Origin: an uncultured Cytophagales bacterium
GTDB taxonomy: Bacteria; Bacteroidota; Bacteroidia; Cytophagales; Thermoflexibacteraceae
Length of the DNA: 64,000 nucleotides
Assembly (NCBI GenBank): GCA_938039675.1
Contig: CALHUI010000003.1
Coordinates: 310,001 to 374,000 of the forward strand
Direction of reading: 5' to 3'
Shown: in pieces, positions 1 through 7,757 of the stretch
Position numbering within the stretch: the stretch's first letter is position 1
Layout: every line of letters starts with the position of its first letter
Program-made: the position numbers and the translations under genes
Notes under the pieces: model-generated
What the model saw: only the letters and a program-made list of their open reading frames with translations
What the model was told of the DNA's origin: nothing
Database searches by the model: none

Positions 1-1988
1 CTTATGCTTATGCTAAACGCAAATATCTGAAAGGCACATTCCGCATAGGGGAGGGTTTGATAGGTCAGGCCGCCATCGAGCAAGACACTATCCTAAGGAC
101 AGAGATACCCTCGCATTATATGACCATCTCCTCCGGCATTCTTGGCGACCGTAAACCCGAGTGTTTATTGATAGTGCCTTTAATTACCAACGAAACAGTT
201 TACGGGGTTATAGAATTAGCTGGCTTCGAACGGTTTAAAGAAGTAGAAATTAAGTTTGTTGAAGAAATCAGCGCCATTACAGCGCGAACCATTTTCAATA
301 TTAAGGTCAATGAGCGCACCCTTCGCCTGCTTGCCGAGGCACAACAAATGAGCGAGGAACTACAAGCAAGACAAGAAACACTGCGCGAAAATGCCATTAT
401 CATGGAAGCAACGCAGGAAGAGTTGCGCCGCACAAATGCCCAATTGGAAGAGCAGATACAAGAAGTAAACCGTTCACAAAAACGGATGCAATTACTGCTC
501 GAGAACGCTTCCGAGGTAATTACCATCTATGAAAAAGACGGTTACATTCGCTACATCAGTCCTTCGGTAGAAGCCATCCTTGGCTATACGCAGGACGAGA
601 TGATAGGTATCAACGATATCATATATGTACATCCGAACAGCGTAGCCATTGCCCGCCAAATGTTCCGCGACTTGTTGGAAAACCCGAACGAAAAGGTAAT
701 GGTACAGTTCGAGTATCTGCAAAAAAATGGCGATACCATTTGGCTCGAAGCAACAGGTAATAACCTTCTGTCAGACCCCGCCATCAGAGGTATCGTAGTT
801 AATTACCGCGATATTACCGAACGCAGGTTAGCCGAGCGCGAAGCACGCATGCGTGGTCAAATGCAGGCACTTTCCGAAAACTCTCCCGACCTGATAACAA
901 GGATTAATCCGGAAGGGAAACTGTTTTACATTAACCCTGTTATTACTTTTTATACAGGTAAGACTCCATCCGAGCTTCTCGGCAAGCGCATTCAGGAGAC
1001 AGGTCTTGATGAAGAACTGATTCATCAGTGGGCGCAACTGCTTCATAATGCTATTTCGGCTAACAAGATTATAAAAACGGAAATGCCGTTCCCATCTCTG
1101 TCGGGTAATAGAATCATGCAGGTAAATGCTATTCCTGAACAGAATGAGAATAAAGAAATCGAATCTGTGCTTATTGTTTCGCATGATATTACGGAAATTA
1201 AGGAAGCAGAAATGGAGATACTTTCCATTAACCGTAAGATTACGGAAAGTATCAACTACGCCAAGCGTATTCAGAGCGCTATTTTGCCCGATACAGCTAC
1301 TATCCAAAAAGTGCTGCCCAATTCATTTATTTACTACCGTCCGCGCGATGTAGTAAGCGGCGACTTCCCTTGGTTCTTGCAAAAAGGCAACGATACGTAC
1401 ATAGCCGCAGTAGATTGTACCGGGCACGGCGTACCCGGGGCGCTAATTTCGCTGATTGGTTATTTTATCCTGAACGATGTAGTCAATACACAAAATACGA
1501 CCGATGTAGGCCAAATATTAGACCTTTTGAACGATGGCGTAACCCGCACACTGCGGCAAGATGTAAACGCCACTACGCGCGATGGTATGGATATAGCACT
1601 TTGCAAAATTAATCTGGTTTCCCGCAAAGTGCAGTACGCCGGTGCACATCGTCCGTTGTATTATGTAACCAACGGAGAGTTACAGGTACAAAAAGGCGAT
1701 AAATTCCCGGTAGGCGGCGGACAAATCCGCAACCGCACTGGTTTTAGCAGCCATGAGTTTACGGTGTCCAAAGGAGATTCTATCTATCTGTTTTCAGACG
1801 GCTTGCCCGACCAGTTTGGCGGTCCGGAAAACAAGAAGTTCTCACCGCGTCAAATCAGGGAAATTATTGCTCAAAACCATGACAAACCTATGCATGAGAT
1901 ACGTCGTATATTTGACAATGCCTTTGAGAATTGGCGAAACGGGCACATGCAAACAGACGACGTACTGCTGATTGGAATTAAATTTTAA
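1..1988 (+). CDS. GAF-PAS-PAS-SpoIIE (PP2C) serine/threonine phosphatase, 5' end cut by window
   Basis: The frame is open to the left edge, so the true start lies outside the window; the TTG at 57 is internal. In order: the end of a GAF domain (to about 305), a long Gln/Glu-rich coiled coil (about 320-500), two PAS domains (about 500-830 and 850-1200), and a C-terminal SpoIIE/PP2C phosphatase domain (about 1230-1985). The phosphatase shows VVSGDF with a following Trp, DCTGHGVPGA and a terminal TDDVLLIG, which carry the metal-binding Asp residues of the family. It probably dephosphorylates a protein partner in response to a ligand or redox signal sensed by GAF/PAS. The next two genes encode SiaB-like and SiaC-like proteins, so it is probably the SiaA-like phosphatase of that switch, here a soluble sensor rather than the membrane HAMP protein of Pseudomonas. 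That assignment is inference from context. Confidence 0.88.
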   Translation, partial: YAYAKRKYLKGTFRIGEGLIGQAAIEQDTILRTEIPSHYMTISSGILGDRKPECLLIVPLITNETVYGVIELAGFERFKEVEIKFVEEISAITARTIFNIKVNERTLRLLAEAQQMSEELQARQETLRENAIIMEATQEELRRTNAQLEEQIQEVNRSQKRMQLLLENASEVITIYEKDGYIRYISPSVEAILGYTQDEMIGINDIIYVHPNSVAIARQMFRDLLENPNEKVMVQFEYLQKNGDTIWLEATGNNLLSDPAIRGIVVNYRDITERRLAEREARMRGQMQALSENSPDLITRINPEGKLFYINPVITFYTGKTPSELLGKRIQETGLDEELIHQWAQLLHNAISANKIIKTEMPFPSLSGNRIMQVNAIPEQNENKEIESVLIVSHDITEIKEAEMEILSINRKITESINYAKRIQSAILPDTATIQKVLPNSFIYYRPRDVVSGDFPWFLQKGNDTYIAAVDCTGHGVPGALISLIGYFILNDVVNTQNTTDVGQILDLLNDGVTRTLRQDVNATTRDGMDIALCKINLVSRKVQYAGAHRPLYYVTNGELQVQKGDKFPVGGGQIRNRTGFSSHEFTVSKGDSIYLFSDGLPDQFGGPENKKFSPRQIREIIAQNHDKPMHEIRRIFDNAFENWRNGHMQTDDVLLIGIKF

Positions 1989-2113: not shown

Positions 2114-2662
2114 ATGAAATATATTTATGATTTGCACAGGATAATGCTTAGGCAAAACCTGATTTTGGTGTACGAAGGCGAGTTTACCCAAGAGATAACC
2201 AAATCGGTCTTGGCAATGGCAGAACGCAACATGGATGCTTTCGGCGAGGAAGCTTCCATTAAAAGAAAAGTATTTAACGTAATGGTCGAATGTTTACAAA
2301 ATATCTGTAAACATGCCGAATCATACGATACGGAAAGCTATGGTAAAAATAGTGCCATATTCATGATAGGCAAGCATAACAACGAGTACATCATCACGTC
2401 GGGTAATGCTGTCCCCAAAGACCGAGTAAAAGACCTATCCGCGCGCCTTGCTCATATCAACAGTTTAGACAAAGAGGGTCTCAAAGAACTTTATAAAGAA
2501 ATCATTAAAAACGGAGAACTTTCTGCTAAAGGAGGAGCAGGCCTTGGTTTTATAGATATGGCACGTAAGTCCGGACAAAAACTCCGCTACGACTTTGAGC
2601 CTATTAACGATGCTCTTTCTTTCTTTTCTCTTAGAACCACTATTTCAAGAACAAACAGCTAA
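2114..2662 (+). CDS. siaB: SiaB-family protein kinase
   Basis: This 182-residue protein matches SiaB-type kinases (DUF6272), a GHKL-like ATPase fold. An N-box-like stretch, VMVECLQNICKHAE, lies near residues 56-70, and a glycine-rich ATP-lid segment, GGAGLGFIDMARKSG, near 141-155. In Pseudomonas aeruginosa SiaB phosphorylates SiaC and the SiaA phosphatase reverses it. Here the SiaC-like gene follows after 12 bases and a SpoIIE phosphatase precedes, which reproduces the A-B-C order. It is probably cytoplasmic, with no signal peptide or membrane segment. The start is the first ATG of the frame. The family call is firm; the substrate is inferred from the neighbour. Confidence 0.85.
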   Translation: MKYIYDLHRIMLRQNLILVYEGEFTQEITKSVLAMAERNMDAFGEEASIKRKVFNVMVECLQNICKHAESYDTESYGKNSAIFMIGKHNNEYIITSGNAVPKDRVKDLSARLAHINSLDKEGLKELYKEIIKNGELSAKGGAGLGFIDMARKSGQKLRYDFEPINDALSFFSLRTTISRTNS

Positions 2663-2674
2663 TTCATATAATCA

Positions 2675-3040
2675 ATGGAAATCATTAACTTGGAAGGCAC
2701 AGAAGATACGCCCAAAATCATTTTAGACAAAGACAAGGCGTTATTCGAAATCTCGGGAAGATCTTTGCCGGAAGATGCTGCGGAATTTTACGCACCCATA
2801 TTAGAGTGGCTCGATAAGTATAAAACTGCTCCTAATGTGGAAACCAACTTTTCATTTAAGTTAGAGTATTTCAATACAGCATCCTCAAAATTGATTTTAG
2901 ATATTCTTTCCAAGCTAGATAATATCTCCGGTGCACGTGTTACATGGTATTACCACGAAGACGATGAAGATATGGAAGAAGCCGGTGAAGAATTTTCGGA
3001 ATTGGTTGAAAATTTACCATTTGAGTTCAAATCTTATTAA
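2675..3040 (+). CDS. siaC: SiaC-family (DUF1987) anti-sigma-antagonist-like switch protein
   Basis: This 121-residue protein has the DUF1987/SiaC fold: a short beta start, then the helix around YAPILEWLDKY, then the conserved FKLEYFNTASSKLILDIL segment. Thr68 in the FNTASSK motif has the same number as the threonine phosphorylated in Pseudomonas SiaC. The acidic C-terminal part (DEDMEEAGEEF) is also typical. In Pseudomonas, unphosphorylated SiaC binds and activates the diguanylate cyclase SiaD. No GGDEF protein is encoded in this window, so the target here is unknown. It lies 12 bases after siaB and is very probably co-transcribed, and a strong terminator follows. Confidence 0.87.
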   Translation: MEIINLEGTEDTPKIILDKDKALFEISGRSLPEDAAEFYAPILEWLDKYKTAPNVETNFSFKLEYFNTASSKLILDILSKLDNISGARVTWYYHEDDEDMEEAGEEFSELVENLPFEFKSY

Positions 3041-3063
3041 AAATATGCTCTAAATTATAGTCG

Positions 3064-3114
3064 CACTGCAAAGTCAAAAAGTGCATTTACCTAAGACTTT
3101 GCAGTGTTTTTATT
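3064..3114 (+). terminator. strong intrinsic terminator after siaC
   Basis: CACTGCAAAGTC (3064-3075) pairs perfectly over 12 bp with GACTTTGCAGTG (3095-3106), followed at once by TTTTTATT. It lies between the siaC stop and the ABC transporter start, so most siaBC transcripts should end before the transporter. Confidence 0.8.
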
Positions 3115-3137
3115 GGAGTACAGCATTCTAATTTACC

Positions 3138-6100
3138 ATGAGTGAGGAAATACTCAAAGCACTAACTCAACTTTTTGCCATTATCTCCAAACAAGATACG
3201 GGCGTGAGTGAAGCTGAACGAAATTTTATCATCAGCTTCTACCAACAAGACCTTGATTCTGAAACAATGGCCGAATATTTGGCGCTGTACGATAAATATG
3301 CCGAATATGGTATCGATGACGATTCGGAGGAAGGGGATACCAAAGTTGAGCGCAAAAAAAGAGTTACTCGTGTAAATGAGGCAGTGCGCGTGTTGTCGCT
3401 TTGCCGTAGAATCAACAAAACGCTGACACAGAAGCAAAAAGTTATCGTACTTTTTAAACTGTTGGAAATGGTCGGTTCAAACCGCAGTTTTACTGCCCAA
3501 CGCATGGAAATTATCCAGACCGTTGCTTCTGTTTTCAATATTCCCAAAGAAGAATACAAACTGATGGAGTCCTATGCCATACAAGAACATTCATCCGCAT
3601 TAGACTCCGAAGATATTCTTATATTTGATGACGAGCCTCCAACCGAAGGTAGCAAAAGACGCTACATAGACAGCGGTAAGCTGGATGGCGAAATTATATT
3701 CATCCGTGTCAGAAGTGTAGATTTGTATTTTATCAAATACACAGGCCACGATGAAATCTACCTGAACGGGCAGCTTATAAAGCGCAATAGCATCATCTTG
3801 TTTTCCAACGGTAGTATCATTAAAACTCCCAAGGGCGCACCGCTTTATTACAGCGATCTTGTTAGCAAGTACACCGCCGATACTGTCAGAAACAACATTT
3901 CATTTAATGTTGATTCGGTTTGGTTTAAATTTCCTAACGGTACTATCGGCCTGCGAAATATCAATATTTCCGAAGGTGCGGGCAAACTGATAGGTATTAT
4001 GGGTGCCAGTGGTGCAGGCAAAACGACCTTGCTCAATGTAATGGCAGGGTTGGAAACTCCATACAAAGGCAAAGTAACTATTAACGGTTTCAACATTCAC
4101 GACCCCGTAGAAAGGAAAAACATTGAGGGCGTGATAGGGTACGTATCGCAGGATGATTTGCTGATTGAGGAGTTAACCGTATTCCAAAACCTGTTTTACA
4201 ATGCTAAGTTGTGTTTCCGCGACTTGTCTGATGAGGAGATAACCCAAAAGGTTGTTAGCATATTGGAGAGTTTGGGCTTAGACCGTATCATGCACCTGAA
4301 AGTTGGCAGCCCGCTGAATAAAAAAATAAGTGGCGGCCAGCGCAAACGCCTCAATATTGCTCTGGAACTCATCCGTGAACCGGGAATTCTCTTTTTGGAT
4401 GAGCCAACGTCCGGCCTTTCTTCACGCGACTCTGAAAACGTAATAGATTTGCTCAAAGAACTTTCCCTGAAAGGGAAATTGGTATTTGCGGTTATACACC
4501 AACCCTCATCAGACATCTACAAGATGTTTGACAAGATGTACATCCTCGATACCGGTGGCTATCCGGCATTCTACGGCAATCCGGTAGAGGCTGTTACATA
4601 TTTCAAAAAGGCAACACGTCAGGTAGGCAGTGAACGCGGTCAGTGTATGACCTGCGGCAATGTAAACCCCGAACAGATATTCAATATTATCGAAGCCCGT
4701 GTAGTTGATGAATACGGTGAGTTTACCAACAAACGGAAAATTACGCCTGAGGAATGGAACGAAATGTATCAGGCTAATTTTAAAATAGAGCGAGTAGAGG
4801 AAGTTCGTGAGAAGCCGCCCAAAACACTACATATTCCGTCCAAACTCAAACAAACAATTATCTTTACCACACGTGATGCCATTGCTAAAATCAGTAACAG
4901 GCAATATTTGACTGTAAACCTGATTGAGGCTCCCGCACTTGCCTTGTTAATGTCTTTGGTGATTCGTTACAAAGACAGCTTAGGTAAAGGAGAGTATGTA
5001 TTCCGCTACAATGACAACATTCCGGCCTACATACTTATCTGCATTATTATCGCATTGTTTATGGGGCTTACCGTCAGTGCAGAAGAAATTATCAGCGACA
5101 GAAAGATATTAAAGCGGGAATCGTTTCTTAATCTGAGCCGTACAAGCTATTTGTTCTCAAAACTGATTATTCTGTTTAGCTTGTCGGCCATCCAAACCCT
5201 TTCATTTGTCGTAATCGGCAATTTGGTGCTTGGCATCAGCGAGCAATATCTTACCTATTGGTTGGTGCTGTTCTCTGTTTCCTGCTTTGCCAATGTATTG
5301 GGGCTGAATATATCCTCAGCTTTCAACAATGCGGTTACGGTTTACGTATTAATTCCGTTGCTGCTGATTCCGCAAATGATACTTAGCGGTGGTATTTTCA
5401 GTTTTGATAAATTAAATAATGCAATTGCAAGCAAGGGTAAAACGCCTCTAATTACCGACATATGGGCATCCCGATGGGCATATGAAGCCATTTGCGTTGA
5501 GCAGTTTAAATCGAACCCGTATGAGCGGATGTTCTACGAAATAGACCAAAAAGAAAGTGCCGCCAATTACAAAACATCGTTTTGGTTGCCCAAAATAGAT
5601 GAACTGCTTGTAGCGGCAAGTGATTTAACCGATAGCCGTATTGCATCTGAGCAAGAACAAAGAAAGAATAACCTCGCAATAGCAGCTGCCGAACTGAAAA
5701 AAGATAAAATGCCTGTTCCCGGTAAGCAGGAAGCTATTGAATTGCTCGATGCAGCCTCATTCAATGAGGAATCATTAGAGAAAATCAGGTTGCACACTCG
5801 GCAGTTGAATATTCTGTATGGTCAGATTCAGGCACGTATGGCAGATGCCCGCGATTCTATTATCATGGTTTTTGAAGAGCAGGCGCGAAAATCCGGCAGT
5901 GCCATCACCATCAATCAGTTAAAAGACCTTTATCACAACGACAACCTTGCCGATTTTGTCAAGAATGAAAACGTACTTGATAAAACATTCATAGAAAACA
6001 ATAAAATTATCCAAAATACAGACCCTGTATTTACACTGCCCGAGCCGGAACATCTGCTGGACTATCGCACACATTTCTTTGCACCGTTCAAACACTTTGG

Positions 6101-6239
6101 CGGCAATCTGATAAGTACTTACTATTTCAATCTGATAGTTATTTGGTTGATGACCGTGTTGTTGTATATTGCACTCTACTTTGAGTGGTTACGTAAGTTG
6201 ATTAAACTGTTCGATAAATTAGAATTTGCAAAGAGATAA
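3138..6239 (+). CDS. TerB-like / FHA-like / ABCG-type ATP-binding and permease fusion
   Basis: A 1033-residue ABC half-transporter of the reverse ABCG layout. Residues 1-140 are an acidic helical TerB-like region. About 160-255 is a beta-rich segment with a possible FHA-like tail (EIYLNGQLIKRNSIILFSNG), but the usual GR and SRxH phosphothreonine-contact motifs are not obvious. The ATPase follows: Walker A GASGAGKTT near 290, signature ISGGQRKR near 397, Walker B ILFLDEPTSG near 417 and switch His in VIHQPSSD near 452. A CMTCGN cysteine pair lies near 505. About 590-1030 is an ABC2-type membrane domain with six predicted helices, the last two separated by a helical insertion of about 230 residues, probably periplasmic. 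It should export a lipid or other hydrophobic molecule; the substrate is unknown. The gene follows the siaC terminator. Confidence 0.85.
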   Translation: MSEEILKALTQLFAIISKQDTGVSEAERNFIISFYQQDLDSETMAEYLALYDKYAEYGIDDDSEEGDTKVERKKRVTRVNEAVRVLSLCRRINKTLTQKQKVIVLFKLLEMVGSNRSFTAQRMEIIQTVASVFNIPKEEYKLMESYAIQEHSSALDSEDILIFDDEPPTEGSKRRYIDSGKLDGEIIFIRVRSVDLYFIKYTGHDEIYLNGQLIKRNSIILFSNGSIIKTPKGAPLYYSDLVSKYTADTVRNNISFNVDSVWFKFPNGTIGLRNINISEGAGKLIGIMGASGAGKTTLLNVMAGLETPYKGKVTINGFNIHDPVERKNIEGVIGYVSQDDLLIEELTVFQNLFYNAKLCFRDLSDEEITQKVVSILESLGLDRIMHLKVGSPLNKKISGGQRKRLNIALELIREPGILFLDEPTSGLSSRDSENVIDLLKELSLKGKLVFAVIHQPSSDIYKMFDKMYILDTGGYPAFYGNPVEAVTYFKKATRQVGSERGQCMTCGNVNPEQIFNIIEARVVDEYGEFTNKRKITPEEWNEMYQANFKIERVEEVREKPPKTLHIPSKLKQTIIFTTRDAIAKISNRQYLTVNLIEAPALALLMSLVIRYKDSLGKGEYVFRYNDNIPAYILICIIIALFMGLTVSAEEIISDRKILKRESFLNLSRTSYLFSKLIILFSLSAIQTLSFVVIGNLVLGISEQYLTYWLVLFSVSCFANVLGLNISSAFNNAVTVYVLIPLLLIPQMILSGGIFSFDKLNNAIASKGKTPLITDIWASRWAYEAICVEQFKSNPYERMFYEIDQKESAANYKTSFWLPKIDELLVAASDLTDSRIASEQEQRKNNLAIAAAELKKDKMPVPGKQEAIELLDAASFNEESLEKIRLHTRQLNILYGQIQARMADARDSIIMVFEEQARKSGSAITINQLKDLYHNDNLADFVKNENVLDKTFIENNKIIQNTDPVFTLPEPEHLLDYRTHFFAPFKHFGGNLISTYYFNLIVIWLMTVLLYIALYFEWLRKLIKLFDKLEFAKR

Positions 6240-6334: not shown

Positions 6335-7240
6335 ATGAAAAGATTATATCTGTCGTTTTCCTTAGTATTAATGCTTGCCTGCGGTGCCAATACCCCCGAA
6401 AGCAATACTCAGCAGGTGGTGAAAAATGCTCCTGATGCTGCAAGTCAAGCAGCTTTACCCCAAATTTCGGATGATTTGGTTGCCAATATCATGCAATCTA
6501 TACCTTCTCCGATTGAAACCTCCTTTCTGATTAAAGGCATTGGTGCTCCATACAATGTTTCCAACCTGAATGACCACAATCTGGTAACAAATTATAATAC
6601 CAACTACAGCCAAGCCTTGAATTTGGGTGTTTACAGTACAGACCTTGGTTTTGCCAATTTGTACGACAAAAATCAGGATGTGCTCAATTACCTGAACGCT
6701 GTTAAGAAACTGGCAGATAACTTGGGTATTGGACAGTATTTTGACTACAAAACCATCAAGGAACTCGCTTCCAGCAGCGGTAATGTAGAGCAACTGCTCC
6801 AATTGACACAGCAGAATCTGGAAAAAATTCACAACCACCTCAACGAGCAGAAGCGCGAAAGTTTAACTATCCTGATTCTGACCGGCGGATGGGTTGAAGC
6901 ACTTTACTTAACCACGCTTGTGAATCAAAAAGCCAATAATAAAGAGTTAAGAGACCGTATTGGCGAGCAAAAAATTGCCTTAGAGCAAATTTTGACTATC
7001 TTAGATGTTTATAAGACTAAGCCTAACTTTGCAACCTTGATTGCAGACTTGAAAGAGTTAAACAAGATTTACAGCAAAGTTCAGATTAAGACTACTGTTG
7101 GTAAGCCCACACAAAAGGTAGTAAATGGTGAAATTATTACAGAAGATAATACTGTCAGCACCATTATTATTGATGATGCCGATGTGCAGGCAATTACCAG
7201 CATGGTTAAGTCTATTCGTAATAAAATTATCAAGTCTTAA
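6335..7240 (+). CDS. hypothetical lipoprotein, about 301 aa
   Basis: The frame opens with a GTG at 6299, but the ATG at 6335 gives a clean lipoprotein signal: Met-Lys-Arg, a hydrophobic run, then the lipobox LMLAC with Cys at residue 16. The mature protein is mostly helical and rich in Asn, Gln and Leu, with no catalytic motif I recognise. It probably sits on a membrane facing the periplasm or on the cell surface. It lies 95 bases after the ABC transporter on the same strand, and a second exported protein follows after 28 bases, so the three may be co-transcribed. The function is unknown. Confidence 0.75.
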   Translation: MKRLYLSFSLVLMLACGANTPESNTQQVVKNAPDAASQAALPQISDDLVANIMQSIPSPIETSFLIKGIGAPYNVSNLNDHNLVTNYNTNYSQALNLGVYSTDLGFANLYDKNQDVLNYLNAVKKLADNLGIGQYFDYKTIKELASSSGNVEQLLQLTQQNLEKIHNHLNEQKRESLTILILTGGWVEALYLTTLVNQKANNKELRDRIGEQKIALEQILTILDVYKTKPNFATLIADLKELNKIYSKVQIKTTVGKPTQKVVNGEIITEDNTVSTIIIDDADVQAITSMVKSIRNKIIKS

Positions 7241-7268
7241 TTCTTTTTAAACTTCTTTTTTTGTGAAT

Positions 7269-7700
7269 ATGCGAAATGCACTAACTAAAACAGCAGCATT
7301 ATTGCCTTTCTTATTCTTCTCTATCGGTGTATTTGCTCAGTGCGATGCAGAAGGATATAGCCAAAAGGCACTGAAAGCATTGCAACAGGGGTATACCTTT
7401 GTGAAAAGCTATAAAGTAGATGGTAAAAACGGCGTTCGCAAGAACATTGAATATACCTGCGTATTTAGCAAAGACACTAACTATATGCTCCGTATTGAAG
7501 GTAAAGATGGCGGCGCAAAAGGTATTGTAGCAACCTTACTGGATAATCAGCGGCAGGAGCTTACGACGAATAACTTGAATGGCAAGTCTTATCCAGGGTG
7601 GACTTATCGTTGTCGCTCTACGGGGATTTACTACATCCTGTTCTCATTCAAAGAGTCTGAAAGTTATTGCGGCGCTGCCGTACTCGGCTTTAAGCGATAG
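7269..7700 (+). CDS. small exported hypothetical protein
   Basis: A GTG lies at 7263, but the ATG at 7269 begins a typical signal peptide ending VFAQC, so I place the start there (143 residues). The mature part is beta-rich, with Cys residues at the processed end, in YTCVF, in YRCRS and in SYCGA, suggesting disulfides in the periplasm. No family recognised. It follows the lipoprotein gene by 28 bases and is closed by a bidirectional terminator. Confidence 0.7.
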   Translation: MRNALTKTAALLPFLFFSIGVFAQCDAEGYSQKALKALQQGYTFVKSYKVDGKNGVRKNIEYTCVFSKDTNYMLRIEGKDGGAKGIVATLLDNQRQELTTNNLNGKSYPGWTYRCRSTGIYYILFSFKESESYCGAAVLGFKR

Positions 7701-7721: not shown

Positions 7722-7757
7722 AAAAGCCCTCAGAGTTGTATGATTCTGAGGGCTTTT
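7722..7757. terminator. bidirectional terminator between convergent genes
   Basis: AAAAGCCCTCAGA pairs with TCTGAGGGCTTTT around a short loop, with A and T runs on both sides. It lies between the plus-strand exported protein (stop 7700) and the minus-strand peptidase (stop 7769), so it can serve both. Confidence 0.85.

Follow-up and report, generated by a model that had tools for sequence, protein, structure and literature searches.

The locus described here lies at the start of a 64,000-nucleotide stretch of DNA (the window) from an uncultured Cytophagales bacterium, contig CALHUI010000003.1, positions 310,001 to 374,000 of the forward strand. It comprises genes for a SiaABC-type partner switch, namely a receptor phosphatase, a SiaB-family kinase and a SiaC-family phosphoprotein, followed by the gene for an ABCG-type exporter. 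The initial annotation of this DNA named these four genes in this order, with Thr68 in SiaC and TerB, FHA-like and ABCG parts in the exporter, and open reading frames, profile matches, PDB matches and a predicted model all agree with it. The conserved locus reaches beyond the annotated interval on both sides, and a hairpin between siaC and the exporter gene is an addition to that annotation. Coordinates below refer to the window except where L001 is given.

L001:6192-8521, upstream of the window and of the receptor phosphatase: genes for CheR, for a CheB that lacks a receiver domain, and for a membrane protein with GAF
1..1988, + strand: C-terminal 661 amino acids (aa) of the SiaA-like receptor phosphatase (GAF-PAS-PAS-SpoIIE), whose gene begins 1446 bp before the window
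2114..2662, + strand: siaB-T, SiaB-family Ser/Thr kinase (GHKL-like), 182 aa (NF038262, 6kko)
2675..3040, + strand: siaC-T, SiaC/DUF1987 STAS-like phosphoprotein with Thr68, 121 aa (PF09345)
3064..3106, + strand: terminator-like hairpin with 12-bp perfect arms and a 19-nt loop, followed by TTTTT (z -4.3)
3138..6239, + strand: TerB-FHA-ABCG exporter, 1033 aa (ABC_tran and ABC2_membrane)
3138..3581, + strand: exporter residues 1-148, TerB-like helical domain (weak PF05099; 2h5n, VIA Z 9.3)
3600..3884, + strand: exporter residues about 155-249, FHA-fold domain (Foldseek and VIA on the predicted model)
3951..4412, + strand: exporter residues 272-425, ATP-binding cassette with Walker A GASGAGK (PF00005, 111 bits)
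4851..6236, + strand: exporter residues 572-1033, ABCG-type membrane part (PF01061, TIGR00955)
6335..7240, + strand: lipoprotein-like exporter partner (LP), no Pfam or NCBIfam family
7263..7700, + strand: small secreted protein (SP) with an apparent signal peptide, no family in Pfam or NCBIfam
7722..7757, + strand: strong terminator-like hairpin with a 16-bp stem, at the end of the locus

The wider conserved order is CheR, CheB, GAF membrane protein, dCache-HAMP-GAF-PAS-PAS-SpoIIE phosphatase, SiaB, SiaC, exporter, lipoprotein and secreted protein. The full phosphatase gene (L001:8554-11988) encodes 1144 aa, with dCache and HAMP domains ahead of the GAF-PAS-PAS-SpoIIE part. Its SpoIIE domain carries SGDF, DCTGHG, DG and DD motifs and is related to SiaA, the top PDB match being the PP2C domain of SiaA (6k4e, E value 7e-34). 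The C-terminal half scores 170 bits against NF038263, short of the equivalog cut-off of 700. SiaB-T scores 183 bits against NF038262 (cut-off 85), has the SiaB chain of 6kko (chain A) as its top PDB match (E value 2e-17), and the Glu59/Asn63 pair of its N-box, the catalytic Glu/Asn box, is nearly invariant among copies. SiaC-T, as the SiaC orthologue class of the window copy is named here, matches PF09345 with 139 bits (cut-off 24.5) and 6kko, 7e6g and 6k4f in the PDB. Its YFNTASSK motif aligns gap-free to the NTSS of Pseudomonas SiaC, placing Thr68 where helix 2 begins, and is unchanged in 62 of 62 linked copies. By sequence, the Pseudomonas Sia proteins are themselves the nearest solved structures to all three.

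The exporter has the ABCG-type layout, with the ABC cassette (PF00005) preceding the ABC2 membrane domain (PF01061) on one chain; a long stretch near the C-terminus falls outside the ABC2 profile. Against the pigment-permease/ABCG profile TIGR00955 it scores 250 bits, and the cut-off of 736 is not reached. The TerB domain is below threshold in Pfam (19.4 bits, cut-off 24.4, E value 0.0014). A predicted model of residues 1-252 (predicted local distance difference test, pLDDT, 86; predicted template modelling score, pTM, 0.83) has a TerB-like helical part that resembles 2h5n (VIA Z 9.3). For the beta part, the leading Foldseek matches listed are FHA domains, with probability about 1 and E value about 0.01, and VIA Z is about 7; VIA also matched FHA-2 of Rv1747 (Z 6.3). 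Residues about 155-249 therefore have an FHA fold in the predicted model.

Conservation of the gene order was assessed in a sample of 148 genomes of the order Cytophagales. SiaC-family genes are present in 95 of these and the exporter N-terminal region in 91. The SiaC matches fall into two classes by identity to the window copy, SiaC-T at 60% or more (79 matches in 76 genomes) and paralogues that do not exceed 56%. Sixty-seven of the 79 SiaC-T matches immediately precede the exporter gene on the same strand, across gaps of 18 to 869 bases with one exception of 2048. Further stretches showed the pair also linked in G088 and G111, and located at contig edges in G051 and G082. Both SiaC-T and the linked exporter clade are present in one set of 78 of the 148 genomes, and no genome was found with one alone. 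Families f8, f15, f19 and f20 each hold genomes with both genes and genomes with neither, and the co-occurrence is therefore not one single inheritance event. In a tree of 105 exporters, every linked exporter falls in one clade of 70 (SH-like approximate likelihood ratio test, SH-aLRT, 100), and none of the 35 exporters outside it is linked. Within the TerB-like domain, Q19, G22, Y51 and R122 are invariant in the linked clade, and the unlinked clade has other residues at these positions.

A second sample, of named genomes scanned for SiaC-T, gave 80 loci, some of them from the same genomes. Where enough sequence was available, the exporter is downstream of SiaC-T in 77 of 79 loci, SiaB is upstream in 78 of 78 and SpoIIE is upstream in 68 of 71. 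The initial annotation had pointed to gene order across Cytophagales as bearing on its proposal, and the exporter proves to be linked to siaBC throughout the order. The closest named match, 94% for SiaC, is from a Bernardetiaceae bacterium, and cultivated relatives among the matches include Raineya (orbicola), Rhodocytophaga, Marivirga, Fulvivirga, Flexithrix (dorotheae), Persicobacter and Thermonema (rossianum). One locus, L242 (G002:C37), has three SiaB genes in tandem, then one SiaC gene and the exporter.

Outside the order, in a sample of 296 genomes of the phylum, an exporter of this family was found in one genome, G192, which belongs to the same class. There (L259:6272-11698) siaB-siaC and the exporter gene are arranged tail-to-tail, with genes for a secreted protein and a lipoprotein just upstream of the exporter. 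A shared transcript therefore cannot explain that adjacency. The siaBC-exporter gene order, kept across Cytophagales, is far beyond chance. A lipoprotein-like gene immediately follows the exporter in 71 of 73 named loci; a gene for a small secreted protein is downstream in 65 of 73. In the unlinked clade, a gene of the lipoprotein family precedes the exporter gene, instead of following it, in 11 of 35 loci with no SiaBC adjoining (for example L105, L106, L114 and L131). The lipoprotein family thus accompanies the exporter more widely than the SiaBC linkage does.

The target of the switch in P. aeruginosa is the diguanylate cyclase SiaD, and a SiaD homologue encoded elsewhere would have spoken against the initial annotation. 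No GGDEF domain was found in the assembly of the source genome. Within the order sample, GGDEF was detected in a single genome of 148, which has no SiaC, and in none of the SiaC-T genomes; the control search was positive in 8 of 14 reference genomes. A SiaD encoded at some other place was accordingly rejected as far as the assemblies go, and in the SiaC-T genomes there is therefore no SiaD available to switch. Since the SiaABC switch is kept beside the exporter in genomes that have no SiaD-type enzyme, it probably controls export in place of a second-messenger enzyme. The order-wide linkage and the lack of GGDEF in SiaC-T genomes together make the exporter, as output, well supported in the sense of functional coupling, and it is highly likely that the SiaABC module and the exporter are functionally coupled. 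That part of the proposal of the initial annotation, in which the exporter was the leading candidate target, is borne out; direct binding of SiaC to the exporter is a step that we infer.

The surface of SiaC-T may reflect a changed partner. Residues of Pseudomonas SiaC reported at, or tested at, the SiaD interface include Q10, D29, Y31, Y65, N67, T68, S69, I71, M75, R103, L107 and E110, and phosphorylation of T68 blocks SiaD binding (PMC8457831). SiaC-T retains Y65, N67, T68 and E106 (E110 in Pseudomonas). At the contact positions it has E10 in 61 of 62 copies, and R29, L31, A69, S71, L75, D99 and A103 in all 62, so that the changes relative to Pseudomonas SiaC include D29R, Y31L and S69A, all invariant. 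The other SiaC paralogues of the order mostly have E29, Y31 and S69, nearer the Pseudomonas form; S71, L75 and D99 are common to the paralogues and are therefore not specific to SiaC-T. The surface with which SiaC-T would face its target is thus altered and at the same time frozen, which is what a dedicated partner would lead one to expect.

Other SiaBC pairs were seen in the source genome and the phylum. On contig 15 of the source genome (L147:6966-8470), a further SiaB-SiaC pair is followed by a gene for a coiled-coil protein of 164 aa that seems to have membrane helices. This protein carries SVSDRLQNKL, which matches the SiaC-binding stalk of SiaD (I81-S82-D83-R84-Y85-Q86) and is kept in L260, L261 and L262. 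The stalk is here on membrane helices and not on GGDEF, suggesting another non-cyclase target of SiaC. In other families of the phylum, a stalk after SiaBC is fused to GGDEF in L264 (G276) and to a histidine-kinase-like part in L265 (G424), and from its sequence contexts the docking stalk looks like a movable module. On contig 18 of the source genome (L145:7192-9576) a SiaBC pair adjoins an apparent ABC1/UbiB-type kinase gene. Two genomes (G047 and G102) have about 27-30 SiaC-family genes each, an unusual expansion of partner-switch proteins. SiaC-family domains were also found in frames of ~325-350 aa (G020:C11, G079:C140, G036:C72, G070:C1, G041:C2 and G097:C16) and are therefore probably fused to another domain.

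Several observations weigh against the exporter as the output of the switch, the first of them concerning the linkage itself. In seven genomes (G018, G068, G109, G065, G020, G079 and G124) both genes are present and the pair is unlinked. Phylogenetic relatedness inflates the co-occurrence of SiaC-T and exporter. Terminator-like hairpins were found in 60 of 128 siaC-exporter gaps, with 4.0 expected from shuffles; with a hairpin in about half of the loci, siaC and the exporter gene are therefore not simply one operon. A simple siaBC-exporter operon is weakened on the same ground, and the two halves are often separate or attenuated transcription units, yet remain neighbours. Shared descent, which partly explains the order, and the terminator often lying between the halves would both suit a neighbourhood that is inherited only and has no functional coupling. 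This explanation is very improbable, because the order has been held though the exporter N-terminus has diverged to about 45%, and because neither paralogous exporters nor paralogous SiaBC pairs show such linkage. The absence of both genes together in four families whose relatives have both, and the convergent arrangement in a different order, also argue against it.

The remaining points of this kind concern physical contact. The SiaC-binding stalk motif ISDxxQ was found by pattern search in none of 68 exporter N-termini, which led to rejection of a SiaD-like docking stalk in the exporter; binding of SiaC-T, if any, therefore uses another kind of docking site. A joined chain was also folded, in which SiaC and the exporter N-terminus were connected through in-frame gaps of relatives, with stop codons read as Gly and 34 paired rows. 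The resulting model, made with neither a negative control nor an inspected interface, has well-folded parts on both sides (pLDDT 89) and pTM 0.65, a pTM near the value for two unconnected domains, and shows no confident docking. An alternative is that another protein is the target of SiaC-T, with exporter, lipoprotein and secreted protein serving the same process with no SiaC contact; they might, for instance, produce the signal sensed by the receptor or be its target. The lack of a docking motif and of confident docking, the hairpin permitting separate expression, and the stalk-bearing partner possessed by the L147 pair of the same genome all favour such a target. It is nevertheless a rather unlikely explanation, given the exact co-occurrence in 78 genomes, the adjacency of specifically SiaC-T to specifically the linked exporter clade, and a conserved order in which no further gene has an output of unknown type. 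That SiaC controls the exporter directly is, on balance, somewhat favoured.

How SiaC might be read by the exporter was considered in view of the FHA-fold domain, which the initial annotation had seen as fitting the reading of a phosphothreonine. Rv1747 of Mycobacterium tuberculosis offers a precedent, an FHA-bearing ABC exporter under a small phosphothreonine protein, in which FHA-I binds phosphorylated Thr237 of Rv2623, which modulates the exporter (PMC5549992). By analogy, SiaC phosphorylated at Thr68 could be the active form, recognised by the exporter FHA domain. Sequence search of the PDB with the exporter N-terminal profile gave just one weak FHA match, the FHA domain of Mek1. In this single weak alignment the canonical SLNGT/Asn loop falls on non-conserved exporter residues, and the conservation profile of the exporter shows no evident Arg/Ser pair of the canonical kind. 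The initial annotation had likewise remarked that the usual contact residues were not obvious. Of its suggestion the fold is retained, on the predicted model, while phosphothreonine reading by this domain is improbable. Exporters of the unlinked clade also share the N-terminal architecture with no SiaBC adjoining, and Thr68 of SiaC is at a helix start and not in a loose loop (PMC7647112), making phosphorylated SiaC as the active form an equally doubtful proposition.

The input side of the locus resembles a chemoreceptor. Of 65 named loci, 54 have the full CheR-CheB-GAF-SpoIIE order, and several others are cut at the end of the stretch. The source genome has three CheB domains, and no MCP (methyl-accepting chemotaxis protein) or CheW was found in it; the CheR and CheB of this locus therefore do not belong to an ordinary chemotaxis system. 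They probably tune the receptor phosphatase through methylation. Nothing on point was found in the literature on CheB/CheR together with SpoIIE in Bacteroidetes. Taken together, the system is a SiaABC partner switch that differs in its output and whose input is chemoreceptor-like.

In the mechanism proposed, an extracellular signal read by the dCache receptor would alter the activity of its SpoIIE phosphatase. SiaB would phosphorylate SiaC at Thr68 and the receptor phosphatase would take the phosphate off, with CheR and CheB probably tuning the receptor via methylation. The state of SiaC would then set exporter activity through binding to the cytoplasmic TerB-FHA region, the unphosphorylated form being the more likely binder, as in Pseudomonas. 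A receptor-driven partner switch with the exporter as output, probably via TerB-FHA contact, is the reading to which we give slightly better than even credence. The complete form, in which a methylation-tuned chemoreceptor-like phosphatase with CheR and CheB drives a SiaBC switch that directly opens or closes an ABC exporter, with neither MCP/CheW nor cyclic di-GMP, is a tentative extension, held with less confidence. If true, it would be a chemosensory-like pathway gating export.

SiaC-type proteins are widespread in the order, with up to about 30 copies per genome, yet GGDEF is absent from the SiaC-T genomes. The only target of a SiaC-type protein described in the literature found is a diguanylate cyclase. 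No mention of DUF6272 or of SiaB/SiaC-family names was found in the open-access literature, and DUF1987 has a single mention there. The locus, by pairing one SiaC orthologue with one exporter, provides a concrete and testable second output for the SiaC family and a candidate example of a partner switch that controls an ABC exporter post-translationally. In addition, it links CheR and CheB with a receptor phosphatase, although the genome has no chemoreceptors. Cultivable hosts among the matches include Raineya orbicola, Marivirga, Fulvivirga, Flexithrix dorotheae and Thermonema rossianum.

In STAS partner switches (SpoIIAA/AB/E, RsbVWX, BtrVW, HsbRA) a GHKL kinase and a PP2C phosphatase act on a STAS-like phosphoprotein that controls its target by binding, and the known outputs are sigma factors, secretion or cyclases. 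The same three components are present here, and the literature searched yielded no description of a transporter as the output of a STAS-type switch. As in chemosensory adaptation, a CheR methyltransferase and a CheB esterase adjoin a dCache-HAMP receptor. The locus differs from a chemotaxis pathway in the lack of MCP and CheW in the genome, in a CheB with no receiver and in a receptor that ends in a SpoIIE phosphatase.

With SiaABCD of P. aeruginosa the locus shares the phosphatase-kinase-phosphoprotein order, a SpoIIE/PP2C receptor, the SiaB kinase and a SiaC with NTxS and Thr68 (PMC8457831, PMC7647112). It departs from that system in having the exporter in the place of SiaD, in a genome with no GGDEF, in the changed target-contact residues of SiaC, and in a dCache receptor with CheR and CheB alongside. 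With the M. tuberculosis Rv1747-PknF/Rv2623 system it shares an N-terminal FHA domain and an ABC exporter on one chain, a likeness of domain make-up only. In Rv1747 there are two FHA domains, phosphothreonine being bound by FHA-I, and the kinase PknF is separate, whereas the exporter described here has one FHA domain with no apparent canonical contacts, a TerB-like domain and a SiaB-type partner-switch kinase. Genetically tied to a Ser/Thr kinase and modulated by a small phosphothreonine protein (PMC5549992, PMC3908365), Rv1747 is the nearest functional precedent.

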